Positions 24,733 to 35,196 of a DNA stretch of 64,000 nt are shown one piece after another (position 1 is the first letter of the stretch; each line of letters opens with the position of its first letter). Below the pieces are notes generated by a model, which ran no database searches, was not told the origin of the DNA, and saw nothing but the letters and a program-made list of their open reading frames with translations. A program made the translations under genes and the position numbers. The stretch is from positions 124,001 through 188,000 of the forward strand of contig NZ_SLWB01000006.1 of NCBI RefSeq assembly GCF_004340205.1. The letters run 5' to 3'. The DNA comes from Acetobacteroides hydrogenigenes. Its GTDB lineage: Bacteria; Bacteroidota; Bacteroidia; Bacteroidales; ZOR0009.

Positions 24733-24761
24733 GAAAAGAGGCGTTGCATGCAACGCCTCTA
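24733..24761 (-). terminator. Terminator of the hydrogenase-like operon
   Basis: A perfect 24-base palindrome (24737-24760) lies 29 bases beyond the last stop codon of the minus-strand operon. A TTTT follows on that strand. The palindrome is identical to the core of the terminator at 17805-17846. Confidence 0.75.
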
Positions 24762-24789: not shown

Positions 24790-25551
24790 TTACCTATCCT
24801 CAATACCCAACATATCCATCAGCCCGTTGATAAAGGTAAGCGGATGGGCGGGGTTGCCGGGCACGTACAGGTCGATGTGGTGAGCCTCAACAAACGAGCG
24901 ATCGAGGGCAGGACTATCGGCAAAGAGTCCTCCGCTGATGGCATCGGAACCTACGAGCACCACCACCTTTGGGTCGGGCGTGGCATCGAAGCACACCTGA
25001 AGGGCTTGCGCCATATTCGCCGAGATAGGACCTGTTATCACCACCCCATCGACATGGCGAGGCGAGGCTACGAACTCGATACCGAAGCGCCCCATGTCGA
25101 AGTTGACGTTTCCGGCAGCGTTTAGCTCCATCTCGCCCGAGTTTTCTCCCGCAGCCGACACCTCGCGTAGCTTAAGAGAATTCCTTAAAGTCTTACGTAT
25201 TTCGGGACGAATGGCAGACTCGTCCAATCTGATAGGCTTATCCTCCCCTGCCCTCACGATTAAGTCCTCGCGACGGTTGGCGGCAATCCTAAAGTCGTTG
25301 GTAAACTGAATGGCCGTTGGGAAGGCAAACTCGCACTCGCGACAGAAGACGCATTTGCCCAAATCGATGGATAGCGGCGACGATCCGATGGCTTTTGAAG
25401 GGCACATGGACACCAGCGCATCCACATCGGCTTGTGGTACCTCGAGGTTAACTACAGGACGGCCCCTGAAAAGCGGGGTAAGCGTTGCGCCACGTAAATC
25501 TTTTACGTACTGGATTCCGTGGTCGCGGAGTATTTTTAGTTCGTCGAGCAT
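24790..25551 (-). CDS. Ferredoxin/NuoB-like small-subunit fusion of an Ehr-type complex, without NuoB cluster ligands
   Basis: Homologue of the hydrogenase-4 small subunit (HyfI/HycG, NuoB fold) with an N-terminal ferredoxin-like part, 253 residues from the ATG at 25551. The ferredoxin part keeps C50 (in MCPSKAI) and C67, C70, C73 (in GKCVFCREC). The other three-cysteine motif is absent and F77 replaces its partner. This is exactly one full [4Fe-4S] ligand set of a normal two-cluster ferredoxin. In the NuoB-like part the four ligands of the proximal cluster are replaced: N148, F151, D203 and N233 (PGNPAHP). The fold context RFGIEFVASPRHVDGVVITGP is intact, and the frame is open. A 223-base repeat mosaic separates it from its partner. 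This is a subunit of a complex that cannot be a normal [NiFe] hydrogenase. Confidence 0.82.
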   Translation of the reverse strand: MLDELKILRDHGIQYVKDLRGATLTPLFRGRPVVNLEVPQADVDALVSMCPSKAIGSSPLSIDLGKCVFCRECEFAFPTAIQFTNDFRIAANRREDLIVRAGEDKPIRLDESAIRPEIRKTLRNSLKLREVSAAGENSGEMELNAAGNVNFDMGRFGIEFVASPRHVDGVVITGPISANMAQALQVCFDATPDPKVVVLVGSDAISGGLFADSPALDRSFVEAHHIDLYVPGNPAHPLTFINGLMDMLGIEDR

Positions 25552-25774
25552 TCTAAAATAGATTTTAGATATTTCATCAAGACACAAGACATAAGATACA
25601 AGACGCAAGACGCGAGTATCACGACTAAGCAGTAAGGGTTCTTAAACTTCTACTCTTTGTGTTTCTCTGTGCACACCTTCGTGGCCTTTGTGGTTAAATT
25701 AAATCAGCGTAAATCAGTGTTATCAGTAAAATCAGTGTTCTTATTTTTCTTCTAAGGACGCAAGCCTTGCGTCC
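25552..25774. repeat. Repeat mosaic inserted within the hydrogenase-like operon
   Basis: The spacer is built of short repeats: ACAAGACATAAGATACAAGACGCAAGACG-like tracts near 25580-25615, a CTTTGTGTTTCTCTGTG/CCTTTGTGG tract near 25665-25695, AAATCAGCGTAAATCAGTG/AAATCAGTG units near 25703-25738, and a 9-bp hairpin GGACGCAAG/CTTGCGTCC at 25756-25774. The hairpin touches the stop codon of the large-subunit gene. All other gaps in the operon are four bases or fewer. Confidence 0.7.
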
Positions 25775-27286
25775 CTACAAGTCATTCCCGCAGTACGAGA
25801 GGTTGAAGCTCTTGTTGCAAATAGGGAAATCGGAGATCTCCTGATCGCGAACGGCTAGGGCTAGGGCAAACCAGTTATGGAACGATGGATCTTTCACCTT
25901 GTAGTGATCGATTGCTCCTTCATCGTTGGTTATTGCCACGTGACAAATCTCGCCGCGCCAGCCTTCCACCAGCGAAATGGCTAAGGTGTCGGGAGCAAAT
26001 GCTAAGCCGAAGTTGGGAGTAGCAGAGGTGGCCTGATAGTCGAGCTTATCGAGCATATCCAGCACCCTATCTATCGACTGTACCACCTCGTCGGCACGCA
26101 GCTTAGCACGAGCCATTACGTCGCCCGAATCCATGAGTATTGGTTCGTGTTCAAGGTTCCTATATGCAAGGTAAGGGTTGCTCTTTCGGGTATCGCGGTT
26201 AAGGTTGGATGTTCGGGCAGCCATTCCAACGGCACCAATTCCGCGAGCCTGCTCGGTGGTAACAATGCCAATCCCCTCGAAACGGGCAAGCACGGAAGGA
26301 AGCGAGAAGAGCCTATCGGTAAACTGCCCGTACTCGCGCTTTACCTTGGTTAGATTCTTTACAATTTCATCGCGAACATCAGCAGTAAGCGGATAACGCG
26401 TTCCGGCAGGACGAATAATGCCTTTACCAAAACGGTTGCCGCACCAGAACTGCGTAGTATTTATCATTACTGTTCGCAAAGCCTCGCAAACTACCTGTCC
26501 GAGCTGATAGGCTACGTCGCCACAAAGAGCAGCGGTATCGCCAATATGAACGGCAACACGCTCCATCTCCTGAGCAATCACTCGCTCCTGGGCAAGACGC
26601 TCGTCAACCTCAACACCAGAAAGCGCTTCGGTAACGAGGGCAAAGCCAAGGCCATGCGACACGGCGCTATCGCCCGCAATATTTTCTGAAAGAATTGTCT
26701 TTTTAAGAAGCGAAGAATCGTCGGCCATTAGGGTTTCCACCCCACGATGCTGGTAGCCCAGCTGAATTTCGAGATGCAGCACCTTTTCGCCATTGCAGAT
26801 AAAGCGGAAGTGCCCCGGCTCGATAACCCCGGCATGAATTGGGCCAACGCCCACCTCGTGCAGCTCCGTTCCATCAATCCTATAAAACGGATAGGAGTCC
26901 ATCCAATCCGAATACGAACGGTTGTAGGGGTAGCGAACAGGCTTAAGCCAGGGATGCCCTTCGAAGGTTACCCCAAAATTTTCGGCAATCTCGCGCTCGT
27001 AGATGTGCATTGCAGGAATCTTCGCCGTTAGAGAAGGTAACGTTGCACGCTCGTTGCACCTATATCCGTATATTATGATATCGCCAGCGCCATCCGAAAG
27101 AACGATGAAGCAGGTTAACGCCCCATTGTCGGGCTTGGCGAAGTAGCTAACGCAACGGCAATCGGGATTATGAAGGATATGGATAGCTTGCTCGAAGAAT
27201 AGATCATACTCCAGCATTGGGATATCGGCAAGCTTTACAGTTGCCGGATTTCCTTTTATCCTAACGTACTGATGATACTGGTTCAT
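25775..27286 (-). CDS. Large subunit (NuoC-NuoD/HyfG-like) of an Ehr-type complex, without NiFe ligands
   Basis: Homologue of the hydrogenase-4 and formate hydrogenlyase large subunit, 503 residues. An N-terminal NuoC-like domain (about 1-135, MHIYEREIAENFGV) is fused to a NuoD-like domain (GPIHAGVIEPGHFRF, LQLGYQHRGVE-type stretch at 175-185). In [NiFe] enzymes CGxC and CxxC motifs hold the metal. Here the first is A204-G-D-S207 and the second, at the C-terminus, has S497 and G500, with a cysteine at 499 out of register. No NiFe site can form. The C-terminus KSFNLSYCGNDL keeps the family shape. The other subunits are intact, so this looks like an energy-converting hydrogenase-related (Ehr) complex. 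Confidence 0.86.
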   Translation of the reverse strand: MNQYHQYVRIKGNPATVKLADIPMLEYDLFFEQAIHILHNPDCRCVSYFAKPDNGALTCFIVLSDGAGDIIIYGYRCNERATLPSLTAKIPAMHIYEREIAENFGVTFEGHPWLKPVRYPYNRSYSDWMDSYPFYRIDGTELHEVGVGPIHAGVIEPGHFRFICNGEKVLHLEIQLGYQHRGVETLMADDSSLLKKTILSENIAGDSAVSHGLGFALVTEALSGVEVDERLAQERVIAQEMERVAVHIGDTAALCGDVAYQLGQVVCEALRTVMINTTQFWCGNRFGKGIIRPAGTRYPLTADVRDEIVKNLTKVKREYGQFTDRLFSLPSVLARFEGIGIVTTEQARGIGAVGMAARTSNLNRDTRKSNPYLAYRNLEHEPILMDSGDVMARAKLRADEVVQSIDRVLDMLDKLDYQATSATPNFGLAFAPDTLAISLVEGWRGEICHVAITNDEGAIDHYKVKDPSFHNWFALALAVRDQEISDFPICNKSFNLSYCGNDL

Positions 27287-27289
27287 GTA

Positions 27290-28690
27290 CTACTTTATTG
27301 CTTCGTTAATAAGGTTCATCACAAATCCATCTTTAAAAAAGAAGACGTAGAAGGCTAATCCTATAAGGAGGTATTGAACAGCCGTAAGCGACATCGAGAG
27401 CTTAAATCCGGTTGGCTTTACCGTTTCTTTAGCGTACAGGATGGATAGCAACTTTTGTACAATGGCGTATACGCAGCATAGCAGCACCAGCACAAGAACC
27501 GTGAAAAGAATCCAACGCTCCTGCGCCAGCATGGCTTTAAATATCGTCAGCTCCGAAACGAACAAGCCGGATGGAGGAAACGCAACAATGCCAAGCGTTC
27601 CGAGCATTAGCACCAGCGCTCCGGCCGAATAGTGCCTTATGTAGCCGCCCATCTTAGAGATTTCGTAGGTATCGAAGGTGTTGCGCACCTGACGAACCTG
27701 AAAGAAGAGCGCCGCTTTAAGGAAGGTGTGGGCAATGATATGGATAAATGCAGCGTAACGGGCAACGCCTCCAATCCCGAGGGCAATGGCAACCAATCCC
27801 ATGTTCTCGAGGGTAGAGTAGGCCAGCAGACGCTTCAGGTTGTTCGATTTAAGCAGGTAGGTTGCCGCAACTATCACCGAAAGAATCCCAGAAAGTATTA
27901 GCACATTCGAAGCCCACTGCCCAACGATGGTTCCATCGAGGATGTTTAGCAAACGGTAGATTGCCACAAAGCCACCGTTCACCATCAGAGTAGACATAAC
28001 GGCAGAGATTGGAGGCGGCGCAATGGTGTTTGCATCGATACCCACCGTATGCATGGGGAAGAGCTCCATCTTGGTGCTGAATCCAACCAGCACAAAAAGA
28101 AAGGCAATTCGCAGATAGGCTGGATTGGCGTTTGCAGCCAACACTTCAAGACCTTTATACGATAGAGGAATATCACCGCTATTAGAAACGATGGTTCCTA
28201 GGAAAAGGATTCCCATATAGGCCAGCGCAATACCAATGGAGCTAACAAAGATATACTTCCAGGTAGCTTCCAGCGCATGCGTGCTGCGGTGATGGTATAT
28301 GAGCACCGATACAGTAAGCGTGGTGGCCTCCATAAAAACCCACAGCACGATAAGGTTATTGGATAGGTAAACGCCCACAAGCGAGGTAAGCAGACCTGTA
28401 AGCCCCGCAATGTATAGAGGAATTCCTCGTTTAGACTCGTGTGTCAAATAGTAAAAGCTATGAATGAAGGCTGGAATAGCAACCACCACCATCAACGAAA
28501 GCATTATAACGGCAGTACCATCGAAGGTAAAGTACACCAGCTCGGTTTGCCCCTTGCTTGCATAGGCTCGCACCAAAAGCGCAATAAGGTTGACAATAAA
28601 TAAACCCGAAAGCACCTTACTCGCTAAAGGATTTCGGAGAGAGAGCATCAGCCCAACTAAAACAACAGATATGATAAAAAAGTACAGCAT
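27290..28690 (-). CDS. Antiporter-like membrane subunit (HyfF/NuoN-like)
   Basis: One of two proton or sodium-translocating subunits of the complex. From the ATG at 28690 it is 466 residues. An upstream in-frame codon at 28726 would overlap the preceding gene. About 13-14 hydrophobic helices are visible. Family features are the NLIVLWVFMEATTL segment with a buried Glu, the discontinuous-helix region and LLAYSTLENMGLVAIALGIG with a lysine/serine channel motif. Four bases separate it from the HyfE-like gene, and three from the large subunit. Confidence 0.88.
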   Translation of the reverse strand: MLYFFIISVVLVGLMLSLRNPLASKVLSGLFIVNLIALLVRAYASKGQTELVYFTFDGTAVIMLSLMVVVAIPAFIHSFYYLTHESKRGIPLYIAGLTGLLTSLVGVYLSNNLIVLWVFMEATTLTVSVLIYHHRSTHALEATWKYIFVSSIGIALAYMGILFLGTIVSNSGDIPLSYKGLEVLAANANPAYLRIAFLFVLVGFSTKMELFPMHTVGIDANTIAPPPISAVMSTLMVNGGFVAIYRLLNILDGTIVGQWASNVLILSGILSVIVAATYLLKSNNLKRLLAYSTLENMGLVAIALGIGGVARYAAFIHIIAHTFLKAALFFQVRQVRNTFDTYEISKMGGYIRHYSAGALVLMLGTLGIVAFPPSGLFVSELTIFKAMLAQERWILFTVLVLVLLCCVYAIVQKLLSILYAKETVKPTGFKLSMSLTAVQYLLIGLAFYVFFFKDGFVMNLINEAIK

Positions 28691-28694
28691 CCCC

Positions 28695-29327
28695 CTAATC
28701 CTTAAGTGATGATAAATCCTCCACATCGGGGTCGTTCAACCGTTTCCCGATACGCGAAGCAAAAACGCCCAAAATTAAAACGCTGGCAAAAAGGTCGAGT
28801 AGGATACCTACGTTAACCAAGAACGGCATCTCGGAACCAACGGCCAACGAGAACATGAAAACGCCGTTCTCCAGCACAAGAAATCCCACCAAATGAGGGA
28901 ATATCTTCTTATGGGTAATTACAAGAATCAACCCTGTGAAAACCGAAAAGAGCGCGGTAATCATAAATATCTTTTCGATGTTGCCGATCTTAAGCATATC
29001 GCCCAGAACCACGCTAACGCCCATTGCCACCAGCACAAGCAGCAACGAGTAGAAGGCAGGAACGGCCTTGGCATGCACCTTAGCAACCTTCATCTTTTTA
29101 ACGATATTCCTCAGCAGCACCGGAACAGCAATTGCCTTGAAGATGAGGGTTTCTGCGACAACAAATATCAGCGAAGCGAGGTCGTTGGCCCCCGAGAGCT
29201 CGGAGAAGGCCAAGAAGAACAGAAGCACCCCCTGCAATGCAACCAGCTTGAGGTAGGTTGCAAACCGCTCGGCAATGGAGATGTACATTAGCGTTACGCC
29301 AAAAAGTACGATAATAGCGAGATTCAT
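28695..29327 (-). CDS. HyfE-like membrane subunit (NuoK-like)
   Basis: Small membrane subunit of the hydrogenase-4-like complex, 210 residues, close to HyfE (about 216). Hydrophobic helices cover most of the chain, with a charged loop NIVKKMKVAKVHAKA near residues 75-90 and a conserved Glu in FLVLENGVFMFSLAVG that corresponds to the NuoK channel Glu. It lies four bases from each neighbouring gene or less. Confidence 0.85.
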   Translation of the reverse strand: MNLAIIVLFGVTLMYISIAERFATYLKLVALQGVLLFFLAFSELSGANDLASLIFVVAETLIFKAIAVPVLLRNIVKKMKVAKVHAKAVPAFYSLLLVLVAMGVSVVLGDMLKIGNIEKIFMITALFSVFTGLILVITHKKIFPHLVGFLVLENGVFMFSLAVGSEMPFLVNVGILLDLFASVLILGVFASRIGKRLNDPDVEDLSSLKD

Positions 29328-29330
29328 ACG

Positions 29331-30239
29331 TTAAGCTATTTTTTGCATTAGAATAAGAGCCACAATCAGGCCAAGCAGGCCAATGGCGGTAAGCGTAAGC
29401 AGGTATTGAGGGTTTTTCGCCATCTTGTTACGCGCCCTAAACGATTCGAGCAGCCCGACAACAACGGCAAACCCAACAGCGATCACCCCGAAGTAGAGGA
29501 ACTGGTAGCCAATTTTCCACGATGGAGGAATAAGCATATTGGCCATGAGCATGGAGAATACGCCAAACTTTAGCGACGAGGTAAGATGAATCAGCCCTAA
29601 GTCAAATCCAGAGTTGTCGAGAATCATAACCTCGTGCACCATGGTAAGCTCTAGGTGCGTTTTTGGGTCATCGACAGGAAGTCGGCTATTCTCGACCATG
29701 GCAATAAGGATTACGAGGCAGGCAAATAGAGCGCCCAGCAGCAACGAGTAGTCGCCAACGGTGTTAAACGCCTTGAAGATCTCGGTAAACGAGGTGCACC
29801 CTGTCATCATGGCCATAACGCCCATCATAACGAACAGGGCCGGTTCGACGAGCAGCGCGTAGAGCGTCTCGCGGTTGGCTCCCATCCCCTCGAAGCTGCT
29901 GCCCGTATCGAGCGCGGCAATAATCATAAGAAAACGACCCAACGCAAGCAGGTAGGCGAAGAAGACAAAATCGCCGTTAAAAGAAATCAGGGCATTGCCA
30001 CCCGCAAACGGGATAACCAGCATTGCAGTAAGCACGCAGGCAAGGCCTACAGTAGGTGCGATACGAAAGATCGAACTTGTGGTAGTGCTGTAAACGCTAC
30101 CCTTTCGTAGCAGCTTCACGATGTCGCGCACAGGCTGAATAATACGTGGCCCTTTACGCCCCGAGGCAATGCTTTTGGTTCGAGCAATGATCCCTGGAAA
30201 GAAGAATGCCGCGAGTATAATAAGTAGGTATCCGGTCAT
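29331..30239 (-). CDS. HyfC/NuoH-like membrane subunit
   Basis: Subunit that joins the peripheral arm to the membrane arm, 302 residues with about 8 helices. The NuoH family loop is present: SGRKGPRIIQPVRDIVKLLRKG near residue 30, then MVENSRLPVDDPKTHLELTMVHE near residue 190 with conserved acidic residues. In complex I these loops line the quinone cavity. It lies one base from the HyfB-like gene. Confidence 0.9.
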   Translation of the reverse strand: MTGYLLIILAAFFFPGIIARTKSIASGRKGPRIIQPVRDIVKLLRKGSVYSTTTSSIFRIAPTVGLACVLTAMLVIPFAGGNALISFNGDFVFFAYLLALGRFLMIIAALDTGSSFEGMGANRETLYALLVEPALFVMMGVMAMMTGCTSFTEIFKAFNTVGDYSLLLGALFACLVILIAMVENSRLPVDDPKTHLELTMVHEVMILDNSGFDLGLIHLTSSLKFGVFSMLMANMLIPPSWKIGYQFLYFGVIAVGFAVVVGLLESFRARNKMAKNPQYLLTLTAIGLLGLIVALILMQKIA

Positions 30240-30240
30240 A

Positions 30241-32208
30241 CTAAATCAGCTTAAAGTAGGTTAGCACCAAAATGGCAACAATAAACAGCAACGCGTAGAG
30301 CACGTAGTGCTGCACATGCCCGGTTTGAAGGATGGCGGCCTTACGGATGATCTTCAGGAGCCTGTTGGTTGGATGCACCGTAACCATTTCCTCGAAAACG
30401 TCGTTGCTTCCGGTCTTAAAGCTGGTTGCATGAGGGAAGAAATCGGTCTTCTCGAGCGGCTCAAAATCTTTCGTAACCTTCACCAACGGCTTAGATATGG
30501 AGATCAAGCTATCGGCATACGAGGTAGAGGTATACTGCTGCGTAGCATTAACGGCAGAGTAGCCGCATCCCCAGGTTGGTCCTTCAGTAATTATAACATC
30601 CTGCTGCATCTTTTTGCGGAAGAAAAATATCACCGCAATAAAACCTACAAACGCCAACGATATCCAGGTGATGCTGCTGGTTGTATTTAGTATAGGCTGC
30701 AAAAGTTCGGTCGAAGTATTTACCTGTGGGAACTGGGCAACAACCGGAAGTATTAGCTTAACGGCAATGGATGGGAACAAACCTATTGCTAGTATTCCTG
30801 CAAGAAGAACGTACTGAGGAACGAGCATCCATCTACTTACCTCTTTAACATGGTCTATCGGCTTACGGGGAGCGCCCAAGAATGCAATGCCCACCGCCTT
30901 TGAGAAGGCAAACACGGCCAATCCGCCAATCAACGCCAGAATCATCGAAGAGGTGATGAGCAAGATGGTTTCGCGGAGCGACTGCCCCACCAAGCTGTCG
31001 AACATCCCTACATATATAAGTAGCTCCGATATGAAGCCGTTAAACGGAGGAAGCGCACAGATGGCCATTGCGCCAACAATAAAGAGAAGCGAAGTGTGCG
31101 GCATCTTCTTGATAAGTCCGCCTAAATCGTTCATGTTACGCGTATGGGTTGCCGTGTACACCGAACCTGCCCCCATAAACAGCATGGGCTTAAACAGCGA
31201 GTGGTTTACGATATGCAGTACGGCTCCTGCAAAGGCCAAAAGCGATAGCTGAGGGTACTGAATATGAAGACCGATGAAACCTAAGCCAAGCCCAATTCCA
31301 ATGATACCGATGTTCTCGATACTGCTATAGGCAAGCACCTTCTTCAAATCCTTTTGTACGATGGCGCTTACTACCCCCCAAACTCCGGTAAGAAGGGATA
31401 CCGCAAGCAAGATCATTCCTACCTCTAAATATTGGCTGTGCATTGCAAAAAGAACACGAAGCAATCCGTAAATCCCCATCTTTATCATAATGCCCGACAT
31501 GGCGCCCGAAACGTGCGAGGGTGCCGCAGGGTGGGCGTTCGGAAGCCAGGTGTGCAGCGGCACAAAGCCTGCCTTAAGCCCAAATCCTAAAAAGAAAAGA
31601 AGGAATACGGGAATACCATTATTGGTAGCAAAGTAGGACGATAGGCCATCGAAACCAAAGATTCCGGTTTTTACGTAGGCAACCACAAATCCGGCAAGGA
31701 TAAGGAAGAAGCCAACGTGCATCTGAATAAGGTACGATATTCCAACCTTAAACGTTTCGTGCTTCTCGGCCTCGAACATCACCAGAACGAATGAAGCCAA
31801 TGTCATGGCCTCCCACGCTGCCAGAAAAGCAAAGCCTTCGCGAAGCGTTACCACCAGTATCATGGACACCTGCAGCCAAACCAGCGCAGCACCATGAATG
31901 GCCAGCTCACTCCTATTCTTCTTTTCCATATAAGGGGCGAGATACCCCTTAGAGTATACCGTTGTGAGCACACAAACGAGGTTAATAGCAGCAATAAAAA
32001 GGAATGATAATGGATCGATAGCAACAGAGCTACTCCCATTATTAACCAACCCTGTGTCAAAAAGACCTAATGCGCCTACCGCTGTAACAACGGTATAAAA
32101 TGCCACTACCAGTTGGGTAAATAATACTACGGCAAATTGTCGTTTTTTAGATAGAAAGAAACTGAGTAGTGGCAGAAACGCAGCTGAAATGAGAAAAGAG
32201 ATATTCAT
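30241..32208 (-). CDS. HyfB/NuoL-like antiporter subunit
   Basis: Largest membrane subunit and first gene of the operon, 655 residues from the ATG at 32208. A start at 32238 is rejected because it lies in the -7 box. The antiporter domain has AFLAAWEAMTLASFVL with a buried Glu, GLKAGFVPLHTWLPNAHPAAPSHVSG, and KVLAYSSIENIGIIG. The C-terminal third adds further helices and a polar segment with TWGCGY. Such subunits carry ions across the membrane when the peripheral arm drives them. Confidence 0.9.
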   Translation of the reverse strand: MNISFLISAAFLPLLSFFLSKKRQFAVVLFTQLVVAFYTVVTAVGALGLFDTGLVNNGSSSVAIDPLSFLFIAAINLVCVLTTVYSKGYLAPYMEKKNRSELAIHGAALVWLQVSMILVVTLREGFAFLAAWEAMTLASFVLVMFEAEKHETFKVGISYLIQMHVGFFLILAGFVVAYVKTGIFGFDGLSSYFATNNGIPVFLLFFLGFGLKAGFVPLHTWLPNAHPAAPSHVSGAMSGIMIKMGIYGLLRVLFAMHSQYLEVGMILLAVSLLTGVWGVVSAIVQKDLKKVLAYSSIENIGIIGIGLGLGFIGLHIQYPQLSLLAFAGAVLHIVNHSLFKPMLFMGAGSVYTATHTRNMNDLGGLIKKMPHTSLLFIVGAMAICALPPFNGFISELLIYVGMFDSLVGQSLRETILLITSSMILALIGGLAVFAFSKAVGIAFLGAPRKPIDHVKEVSRWMLVPQYVLLAGILAIGLFPSIAVKLILPVVAQFPQVNTSTELLQPILNTTSSITWISLAFVGFIAVIFFFRKKMQQDVIITEGPTWGCGYSAVNATQQYTSTSYADSLISISKPLVKVTKDFEPLEKTDFFPHATSFKTGSNDVFEEMVTVHPTNRLLKIIRKAAILQTGHVQHYVLYALLFIVAILVLTYFKLI

Positions 32209-32235
32209 CAGATGTTTTCTGTCGAAGTAATGCCG

Positions 32236-32243
32236 CAAAGGTA
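32236..32243 (-). promoter_or_regulatory. Bacteroidota -7 box for the hydrogenase-like operon
   Basis: TACCTTTG on the minus strand matches TAnnTTTG and lies 27 bases before the ATG at 32208. It sets the start of the HyfB-like gene. Confidence 0.6.
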
Positions 32244-32379: not shown

Positions 32380-32496
32380 AGAAATGATTTCCTAAAGCGA
32401 GGAAGCCGTTTCCGAATGCTGGGAAATGATTTCCTGAAGCGGGGAAGCCATTTCCGAACGCTGGGAAATGATTTCCTGAAGCGGGGAAGCCATTCC
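32380..32496. repeat. Tandem 42-bp repeat with a 21-bp sub-period
   Basis: GGAA-start units occur at 32381, 32402, 32423, 32444, 32465 and 32486, exactly 21 bases apart. Two types alternate (GAAATGATTTCC and GAAGCCATTTCC), giving a 42-base superperiod of three copies. The units resemble those at 19613-19822. No function is visible. Confidence 0.8.
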
Positions 32497-33012: not shown

Positions 33013-35196
33013 ATGTTAAGTATTTATTTTTGGATAGTTCCGGCATGCGCAGCAGTCGCATTACTATTCGCCTACATCTTCTTCAAGGGAATGATGAAGG
33101 AGTCAGAGGGCACAGAGACAATGGCTCGCATAGCCAGCCACGTTCGAAAGGGAGCAATGGCCTACCTTAGGCAACAGTACAAGGTAGTAGGAATCGTATT
33201 TATTGTGCTCTGCGCACTGTTTGCCTATATGGCCTATGGGCCAGGCTTGCAGAATAAGTGGGTTTGGTTTGCCTTCCTTACCGGCGGCTTCTTCTCGGGG
33301 CTTGCAGGTTTTATTGGGATGAAGACCGCCACCTACGCATCTGCTCGTACTGCAAATGCTGCCCGCCGCAGCCTCAACGATGGTCTTAAAATCGCCTTCC
33401 GTTCGGGAGCAGTTATGGGATTGGTGGTAGTTGGCCTAGCCCTTCTCGACATCTCGCTTTGGTGGATTCTTCTCGACTACTTTGTAGAAGAGGCAACATC
33501 CTCCGAAAAGGTTGTCGTAATTACAACCACCATGCTTACCTTCGGTATGGGTGCCTCTACTCAGGCGCTATTTGCAAGAGTTGGTGGTGGTATCTTTACC
33601 AAGGCTGCCGACGTTGGCGCCGACCTAGTAGGTAAAGTAGAAGCAGGCATTCCTGAAGATGACCCCCGCAACCCTGCCACTATTGCCGACAACGTGGGCG
33701 ATAATGTGGGCGACGTTGCCGGTATGGGTGCCGACCTTTACGAGTCGTACTGCGGATCGATTTTGGCTACTTCGGCCCTTGGTGCTGCTGCATTTGCAAC
33801 AAATCCCGAGCTGCAGTTTAACGCCATCCTTGCCCCAATGCTTATCGCCGCATTTGGCGTAGTGCTTTCGCTTATCGGAATCTTCCTTGTAAAGACCAAA
33901 GAAGGCGCATCGCAGCAGCAGCTGCTAAGCGCACTAGGAAGAGGCATCAACATCAGCTCGGTGCTAATCGTTTTTGCATCGTTCCTTACCGTATACCTGC
34001 TTGGGCTAGACTACATGATCTGCGGATCGATCATCACAGGTCTGGTTACGGGTATCATCATTGGTAAGTCTACCGAATACTACACCTCGCATGCCTACGC
34101 GCCAACCCAGGGTATCGCCATGAGCTCGAAAACCGGGCCTGCTACCGTAATCATTAAGGGTATTGGTACGGGTATGATCTCTACGGCAATTCCAGTTATT
34201 ACAATCGTAATTGGAATTATCCTATCGTTCCTTTTTGCCGCCAACTTCAGCTTCGCCAATATGTCGATGGGACTTTACGGCGTGGGTATCGCCGCTGTAG
34301 GTATGCTATCGACCTTGGGTATCACCCTTGCGACCGATGCCTACGGTCCTATTGCCGATAACGCCGGTGGAAACGCCGAAATGAGCAAGCTAGGCGAGGA
34401 AGTACGCCACCGTACCGATGCGTTGGATGCTCTTGGAAACACCACCGCTGCAACTGGAAAGGGCTTTGCTATCGGATCGGCAGCGCTTACCGGCTTGGCC
34501 CTTCTTGCCTCGTACGTCGAGGAGATCAAGATTGCCCTACTCCGTGTTGGACAAGCTACCATAGAGGTTAGCGGTCAGGTTGTGAATACGGCCGAAGCTT
34601 CGCTCACCGACTTTATGACCTACTACGATGTTACCCTGATGAACCCTAAGGTACTTGCAGGCGTATTCATTGGCTCGATGATGGCCTTCCTATTCTGCGG
34701 ATTAACCATGAACGCCGTAGGCCGTGCCGCTCAAAAGATGGTGAACGAAGTACGCCGCCAGTTCCGCGAAATCGCCGGCATTATGGAAGGAAAAGCCGAG
34801 CCAGACTACGCTAAATGCGTGGAGATCTCTACCCGTGGTGCTCAGCGCGAAATGATGTTCCCTTCGCTACTTGCCATCGTTACCCCTATCGTTACCGGAA
34901 TTATCTTCGGCGTTTCGGGCGTAATGGGACTTCTTGTTGGTGGATTAGGTTCTGGCTTTGTGCTTGCCGTATTCATGGCCAACGCTGGTGGTGCCTGGGA
35001 TAACGCCAAGAAGTACATCGAGGAAGGAAACCTAGATGGAAAGGGATCGAACAACCACAAGGCTACCGTTATTGGCGACACCGTGGGCGATCCATTTAAG
35101 GATACCTCTGGCCCTAGCCTCAACATCCTTATCAAGCTAATGAGCATGGTAGCCATCGTTATGGCTGGACTAACCGTTGCCTACAGCTTATTGTAA
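33013..35196 (+). CDS. hppA: Membrane-bound ion-pumping pyrophosphatase
   Basis: Hydrolyses pyrophosphate and pumps H+ and/or Na+ out. The 727-residue protein has about 16 helices. The substrate site contains [39 protein letters not shown] with its Asp/Asn cluster, and [15 protein letters not shown] near the C-terminus. [10 protein letters not shown] has Ala rather than Lys at the position linked to potassium dependence, so a K+-dependent enzyme is likely. DLYESY suggests the Na+-pumping branch; this is an inference that needs phylogeny. It has its own terminator and probably reclaims PPi made by biosynthesis or by pyruvate phosphate dikinase. Confidence 0.95.

Follow-up and report, generated by a model that had tools for sequence, protein, structure and literature searches.

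The last gene of a six-gene operon in the window (the whole 64,000-nucleotide stretch of DNA analysed here) encodes a subunit of a complex I-like membrane complex in which the ligands of one [4Fe–4S] cluster only can be recognised. Its ferredoxin-like domain keeps the complete ligand set of the medial cluster and has lost that of the distal cluster, and its small-subunit part is, as read from the sequence, also devoid of the ligands of the proximal cluster N2, a loss beyond that of the distal set which the first-pass annotation of this DNA did not mention when describing the ferredoxin-like segment. The ancestor of this complex almost certainly possessed three [4Fe–4S] clusters (distal, medial and proximal N2), with the medial ligands alone being kept in the window's lineage. 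The main interest lies in the exchange of N2, which leaves the predicted medial cluster alone, cut off from both donor and active site.

Gene organization of the operon

The operon occupies the minus strand of the window, with the following features (window coordinates):

24737..24760, minus strand: terminator-like stem-loop, 10 pairs, directly past the last operon gene (consensus match only)
24790..25551, minus strand: fused ferredoxin (HycF/HyfH/NuoI-like) and small subunit (HycG/HyfI/NuoB-like), 253 aa (PF01058, E 1.9e-16)
25237..25551, minus strand: ferredoxin-like domain of the fusion, residues 1-105, with one complete [4Fe–4S] ligand set (top hit in the PDB: E. coli FHL subunit HycF, 7z0s_F, E 5.1e-06)
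25775..27286, minus strand: large subunit (HycE/HyfG, NuoC-NuoD fusion type), NiFe cysteines absent (model pLDDT 89.9; Z 40.6 to 7z0s_E over 491 residues)
27290..28726, minus strand: HyfF-like antiporter-type membrane subunit (PF00361, E 8.4e-40)
28695..29327, minus strand: HyfE-like (NuoK-type) membrane subunit (NF008556, E 5.1e-16)
29331..30239, minus strand: HyfC/NuoH-like membrane subunit (PF00146, E 2.6e-29)
30241..32238, minus strand: HyfB-like antiporter-type membrane subunit, listed from TTG, with an ATG 10 codons further in (PF00361, E 5.2e-51)

The fusion gene reads as an uninterrupted 253-aa frame from an ATG at 25551 to a stop at 24790 on the minus strand; the same interval on the plus strand is broken by stops. 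An AlphaFold model of the fusion has a pLDDT of 93.8. The HycG/NuoB-type small-subunit part comprises residues ~112-252, matches PF01058 with 60.4 bits (cut-off 27), and superimposes on HycG (7z0t_G) with Z 15.3 over 140 residues in a fold comparison covering residues 116-250. The PF00037 profile for 2[4Fe–4S] ferredoxins reaches 15.1 bits on the fusion, under its cut-off of 21.1, with one ligand set present instead of two.

The operon is of the Ehr type, i.e., it encodes a membrane complex that resembles both complex I and hydrogenases and has no NiFe site. Its order on the minus strand is HyfB-, HyfC/NuoH-, HyfE-, HyfF- and HycE/HyfG-like, followed by the fusion gene as the last of six, and the same order was found in the relatives inspected, N2-bearing and N2-less alike. 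The stem-loop past the fusion gene likely marks the end of the operon, judging from its predicted pairing and position.

Several features of the surrounding DNA were recorded as well. The spacer between the large-subunit and fusion genes measures 223 bp in the window (25552-25774) and holds near-repeats of the CTTGTGTCTTG type, whereas in most relatives inspected only a few bases separate the large- and small-subunit genes. The upstream region of the operon contains a 42-bp tandem repeat (2.7 copies, 94% match; window 32381-32494). Window 33013-35196 holds a gene divergent from the operon that, judged by eye, resembles a membrane pyrophosphatase; since no such neighbour was seen recurring in relatives, its presence here is probably due to chance.

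Homologues and alignment

Homologues were gathered from several sources. A scan of a genome collection with six peptide patterns, one of which includes three of the cysteines and may thus have introduced a bias, gave 80 loci. Of 393 genomes from the same order, 89 gave a match in a homologue search, from which an 87-row set was made, with two rows from one genome (G252). Further homologues came from 395 genomes of the phylum (17) and from 82 genomes of another group (27, including 12 strong matches with a ferredoxin part). The final alignment contains 213 rows (175 distinct sequences); L239 and L241, which are partial, were left out, as were L182, L164, L165 and L166, in which the small subunit comes without a matched ferredoxin part.

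The ferredoxin domain keeps the medial ligand set

The positions that matter in the ferredoxin domain are the following:

25402..25404, minus strand: Cys50 codon, retained medial ligand (C in 213/213 rows)
25351..25353, minus strand: Cys67 codon, retained medial ligand (C in 213/213 rows)
25342..25344, minus strand: Cys70 codon, retained medial ligand (C in 213/213 rows)
25333..25335, minus strand: Cys73 codon, retained medial ligand (C in 213/213 rows)
25321..25323, minus strand: Phe77 codon, lost fourth distal ligand, variable in relatives (F 40, L 32, C 9, A 6 and others among 109 window-type rows)

In a crossed two-cluster ferredoxin, motif 1 provides three ligands of one cluster and gives its last cysteine to the other cluster. 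Residues 26-99 of the fusion align to HycF in such a way that C50 falls under Cys IV of motif 1 and C67, C70 and C73 fall under Cys I-III of motif 2; the positions of motif-1 Cys I-III are occupied by other residues in the window, and position 77, that of the last cysteine of motif 2, is F. Alignment with L132, an example of a relative with both ligand sets, which carries CVSGCTACIDVCP, leads to the same assignment of all five positions. By this sequence comparison, the ligand set that is kept consists of motif-2 Cys I-III together with C50. With Thermus Nqo9 as the reference, we take the kept set to be that of cluster N6b (medial, adjoining N2) and the lost set to be that of N6a, the distal entry cluster.

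The first-pass annotation had named these four cysteines and F77, and all five are present exactly as numbered, on the minus-strand translation. It had also read the pattern as selection for one complete ligand set, with random variation at the four cysteines in orthologues as the observation that would speak against it. Conservation analysis looked for such variation and found none, the four positions being Cys in every one of the 213 aligned homologues as well as in 87/87 rows of the order set, which came from a whole-protein search of the 393 genomes free of motif bias. The four cysteines also make up 4 of the 10 invariant positions within the first 105 residues in a 61-row alignment. In addition, the gene shows dN/dS values of 0.08 and 0.12 against two congeners, and the distal set needs six changes on the concatenated tree while the medial set is lost instead in none of the rows. 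The medial ligand set is thus clearly under selection rather than in decay.

The proposal that the distal set had gone as a unit holds for motif 1 and fails in part at position 77. The motif-1 cysteine motif is missing in 166/166 rows of the window's type, and its three single positions (Cys I-III) are Cys in 0/109 window-type rows; however, position 77 is still C in 9 of the same 109 rows, so the distal set did not vanish wholly as a unit. Nor is F conserved there, as the spread of residues listed above marks a position that is free to vary. Orthologues with a restored second set, which would likewise have weakened the original proposal, are not apparent: both sets occur in 36/213 rows, and these look like a deeper state rather than a restoration, with L260 (see below) as one possible exception.

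Exchange of the N2 ligands

The small-subunit ligands of N2, arranged as CxxC...C...C, read E136, G139, D203 and N233 in the window:

25144..25146, minus strand: Glu136 codon, at the place of the first N2 ligand (D 107, E 2 among 109 window-type rows; all 16 N2-bearing rows have C)
25135..25137, minus strand: Gly139 codon, at the place of the second N2 ligand, drifting (among 109 rows C 67, A 16, N 8, G 8, S 4, T 3, remainder other residues)
24943..24945, minus strand: Asp203 codon, at the place of the third N2 ligand (D 102, E 3, A 3, N 1 among 109; all 16 N2-bearing rows have C)
24853..24855, minus strand: Asn233 codon, at the place of the fourth N2 ligand (N 108, D 1 among 109; all 16 N2-bearing rows have C)

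All four positions are CCCC in 47/213 rows, and the pattern over the Bacteroidales relatives is D, (C/A/G), D, N; the cultured Rikenella microfusus DSM 15922 (L079), for instance, carries D, C, D and N. Three of the exchanged positions are near-fixed among the 109 window-type rows, and the second one (139) drifts. To turn a Cys codon into one for Asp or Asn, two bases have to change; the first products of decay would be Ser, Tyr, Arg, Phe, Gly or Trp. Because of these two base changes and the near-fixation of three positions, single-step decay does not explain the D/D/N set. The drift of position 139 serves as an internal control for lost constraint, and three of the four ligands were thus exchanged for a new set that has been kept.

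An ordinary Ehr complex whose N2 loss is an artefact of alignment or assembly is barely credible. In its favour, NiFe-less Ehr complexes are already known. However, the residues around all four N2 positions align gap-free between N2-less and N2-bearing sequences (e.g., L084 vs. L118), and therefore the loss is not an alignment fault; it is also common to 144 distinct sequences. A search of the open literature found no description of N2 loss in an Ehr complex, and an earlier one may exist in literature outside that search; the passages on Ehr complexes in PMC6349859, PMC7304191, PMC10284858 and PMC6688271 make no mention of it.

The residues themselves would allow other chemistry in the old pocket. 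A non-cysteinyl cofactor, e.g., a metal on D, D and N, is possible by sequence, and partial metal binding is possible in those N2-less rows that still have C139 (67/109), to which the window does not belong.

The large subunit and the membrane arm

The large subunit lacks the CxxC pairs that bind NiFe in Group 4 NiFe hydrogenases (Hyf/FHL), with the HycE loop RVCGIC reading NIAGDS in the window and the C-terminal DPC stretch reading NLSYCG. HypD is needed for NiFe assembly, and it was not found in the window's genome or its two congeners, while it is present in 8/19 genomes tested. The predicted complex is not a hydrogenase. Ehr complexes without NiFe ligands have been described before, in passages of PMC6349859, PMC7304191 and PMC10284858. 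The other five subunits of the operon contain no CxxC or CxxCH. The medial cluster is accordingly the only redox site of the complex that can be recognised from sequence, which supports in part the suggestion of the first-pass annotation that it could be the sole redox site of the whole complex; as a working redox centre it is putative.

The large subunit keeps the cavity known from complex I. The residue of the large subunit that by its motif corresponds to the complex I arginine packing against N2 is the following:

26744..26746, minus strand: Arg181 codon, HRGxE motif (R in 89/89 window-type rows)

H151 and D257, by alignment the equivalents of complex I His38 and Asp139, presumably the quinone-site pair, are invariant in 62/62 rows, as are D206, R444, E446, H449, N491, K492, S493 and Y498. 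The position of the quinone-site Tyr (Nqo4 Y87), however, reads G205 by alignment, i.e., this feature of complex I is missing. The window's genome has a separate NuoB besides this operon. In complex I, the arginine equivalent to that of HRGxE lies 3.7 Å from N2, and losing it removes N2, according to a passage of PMC8042128.

Seven near-fixed cysteines (C45, C164, C255, C282, C448, C490 and C499) were observed in the large subunit (window 25775-27286). Three of them, C45, C255 and C448, first seemed specific to N2-less sequences (83/89, 85/89 and 78/89 rows vs. 1/16, 0/16 and 0/16 N2-bearing rows) and were considered as a replacement of N2. This candidate was dropped, as all three are found in the N2-bearing L259, L261 and L262 and two of the three in L260; being already in N2-bearing near relatives, they do not replace N2. 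K288, which we take to align near a complex I residue next to N2, was likewise dropped as a correlate of N2 loss (88/89 rows vs. 3/16 N2-bearing rows), K being also found in the N2-bearing L132 and L134. A new cofactor site among the conserved cysteines of the large subunit is possible on the basis of their conservation.

In the membrane arm, E133, K219, K298 and K337 of the HyfF-like subunit and E143, K222, K253, K299 and E405 of the HyfB-like subunit are conserved in every or nearly every row; these acids and lysines presumably match the known ion channel positions. Comparison with two congeners gave dN/dS values of 0.04-0.12 over all six genes, which are under purifying selection. The kept ion-channel residues and the low dN/dS together show that the complex is a working one.

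Distribution and order of the losses

Three cluster states are represented in the alignment, namely N2 with both ferredoxin sets (36/213 rows), N2 with the medial set only (11/213) and the medial set only (166/213), with all 166 rows of the last state being without the N2 cysteine set and without the distal motif. The window's type accounts for 83/87 rows of the order set from 393 genomes. Loss of the medial set, or loss of N2 with the distal motif kept, occurs in zero cases among the 213 rows.

A concatenated operon tree of 54 rows was computed with the ligand columns removed; the distal set, scorable in 53 rows, needs 6 changes on it and N2 needs 3. The N2-bearing rows of the order with both sets (L259, L260, L261 and L262) either branch basally to the window's group or lie inside it, and L260 falls inside the N2-less group. 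A single clade of all N2-less rows except L182 is not rejected (p-AU 0.248), and thus one N2 loss in the window's lineage is still possible; because of the position of L260, a single loss is not certain and there may have been two. The L260 locus (L260:4275-6579) has large- and small-subunit genes with N2 and both ferredoxin sets, no membrane-subunit genes beside them, and an adjoining DUF349 gene.

A second exchange lineage is represented by L182, from another genome of the same order, in which a different Ehr operon starts with a separate 175-aa small subunit (L182:7225-7752) whose N2 positions read D, C, D and D. No ferredoxin gene was found among the listed frames of this 8.4-kb contig, which may end before one. 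The L182 operon groups with the N2-bearing L145 and L146 with a support of 100 in the operon tree, and a topology that unites it with the window's type is rejected (p-AU 0.0001 for the operon and 0.009 for the small subunit alone), showing that the same kind of N2 swap arose twice.

Flanking genes

A shared partner gene as electron donor (formate dehydrogenase, NuoEF) was looked for among 79 loci of at least 9 kb (63 of them N2-less) and did not emerge, and the flanking genes give no pointer to a function. The commonest flanking family near N2-less operons, efflux adaptor-like (named by eye), occurs at 9 loci at most, in varying places and on varying strands. Of the 16 N2-bearing operons with long flanks, 11 have a same-strand gene of one family just upstream (e.g., L139:13720-14550), a representative of which contains an EIIA-type PTS domain and a helix-turn-helix, and 5 likewise have a SulP/STAS transporter upstream. 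Near the 63 N2-less operons, no member of these two families was found.

Possible roles of the complex

The favoured reading is that the N2 pocket has become a polar, cluster-free site, in which carboxylates would supply the negative charge of the lost cluster beside the HRGxE arginine and so hold the small and large subunits together. We consider its chances about even; the idea that the carboxylates face the arginine comes from knowledge of the family. There is a precedent for the replacement of Cys by Asp at a lost cluster, since passages of PMC8357420 describe Asp, Asp, Ser and Ser in place of the cysteine ligands of N7 in complex I, with waters in the gap. The medial cluster would then be kept mainly as a structural pin of the ferredoxin domain, or possibly as a redox sensor, and a structural or sensing role of this predicted cluster is somewhat probable. 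Having lost its distal and proximal neighbours, the medial cluster is left with no known partner to hand electrons on to, and for a cluster isolated in this way structure or sensing is at least as good an explanation as redox chemistry. It is also somewhat probable that no electron wire leads into the cavity any longer and that the membrane arm is driven or used otherwise, for ion/pH homeostasis or for ligand chemistry in the conserved cavity. Taken as a whole, the picture of a complex that has lost the distal cluster and N2 and kept the medial one, with a polar N2 pocket, a structural pin and no electron wire, may be right or wrong with roughly equal probability.

Alternatively, the complex may still be an electron-transfer enzyme, in which the medial cluster takes electrons straight from a soluble ferredoxin and a metal on D136/D203/N233 or the large-subunit cysteines pass them to the cavity. 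The near-fixation of the swapped positions and the similar set reached independently in L182 are what would be expected of a binding site, the 11 rows with N2 and no distal cluster show that the distal cluster can be lost by itself while the remainder of the wire stays, and there are conserved cysteines in the large subunit. However, the fourth member of the putative site (139) drifts, D203 is replaced by E, A or N in 7/109 rows, and C45, C255 and C448 precede the N2 loss; we know of no cofactor site of the D/D/N kind in this family. The leftover NiFe cysteines of MBS are not catalytic either, as judged from the MBS mutants described in passages of PMC7684303. On balance, we regard continued electron transfer as unlikely. 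The medial cluster as a redox or oxygen sensor, gating an antiporter-like ion-translocating complex with no catalytic electron flow, would agree with the ion-channel residues kept in the membrane arm, with the presence of a single isolated cluster and with the pH-homeostasis role that another group proposed for an Ehr operon (in a passage of PMC6688271). A regulatory partner common to the 63 N2-less loci with long flanks was not found, however, and a dedicated sensor appears quite improbable.

The loss of two of three clusters and of the NiFe site might also be read as that of a degenerating relic of a hydrogenase-like complex, with the last cluster on its way out. This is contradicted by the dN/dS values of all six genes, by the four cysteines being present in every aligned row, and by the intact genes, the operon order kept in relatives and the homologues in many families of the order, and we give it next to no weight.

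A more far-reaching proposal, which is tentative and less likely than not, is that a branch of the complex I superfamily has taken the electron wire out of an otherwise complete ion-pumping machine, N2 having been exchanged in place, at least twice, for a conserved Asp/Asp/Asn site and one cluster being left stranded. Such complexes would pump or exchange ions with no electrons passing through N2; if this is true, delivery of electrons to the cavity is not the only way in which the complex I coupling machinery can be driven or used. For the unsolved problem of how ion pumping in complex I is coupled to electron transfer at N2, a widespread relative that lacks N2 and keeps the ion channels, the cavity and the HRGxE arginine represents a natural experiment, which separates the needs of the coupling machinery from those of the electron wire. 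The graded series of three clusters, medial plus N2, and medial alone allows the steps to be tested in related proteins. Should the medial cluster be structural, caution would be called for in annotating such proteins as redox subunits.

Comparison with known systems

The Ehr complexes of Geobacter, Riflemargulisbacteria, comammox Nitrospira and others share with the window's complex a Group 4-like large subunit without NiFe cysteines, a PF01058 small subunit, and NuoH-like and Mrp antiporter-like membrane subunits. In contrast to them, the window's small subunit is also without N2 ligands and has a ferredoxin with one ligand set fused on, the expectation of N2 being drawn from relatives.

The closest folds are those of E. 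coli FHL (7z0s/7z0t; HycG and HycE), and the membrane subunits B, E and F are closest to the HMMs of hydrogenase 4 (Hyf). FHL contains NiFe, the proximal cluster and two ferredoxin clusters in HycF, whereas the window's complex has the ligand set of one cluster only. The archaeal sulfane sulfur reductase MBS (6u8y) is likewise complex I-like and without a NiFe site, with distal, medial and proximal positions present. However, according to passages of PMC7684303, all three clusters are present in MBS, and the proximal one, which is gone in the window, serves as its catalyst; MBS is therefore no model for the window's complex. The N7 loss in complex I resembles the exchange described here in that Cys ligands are replaced by Asp/Ser with waters (passages of PMC8357420). 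N7, however, lies off the electron path, whereas N2 is the terminal donor of that path.
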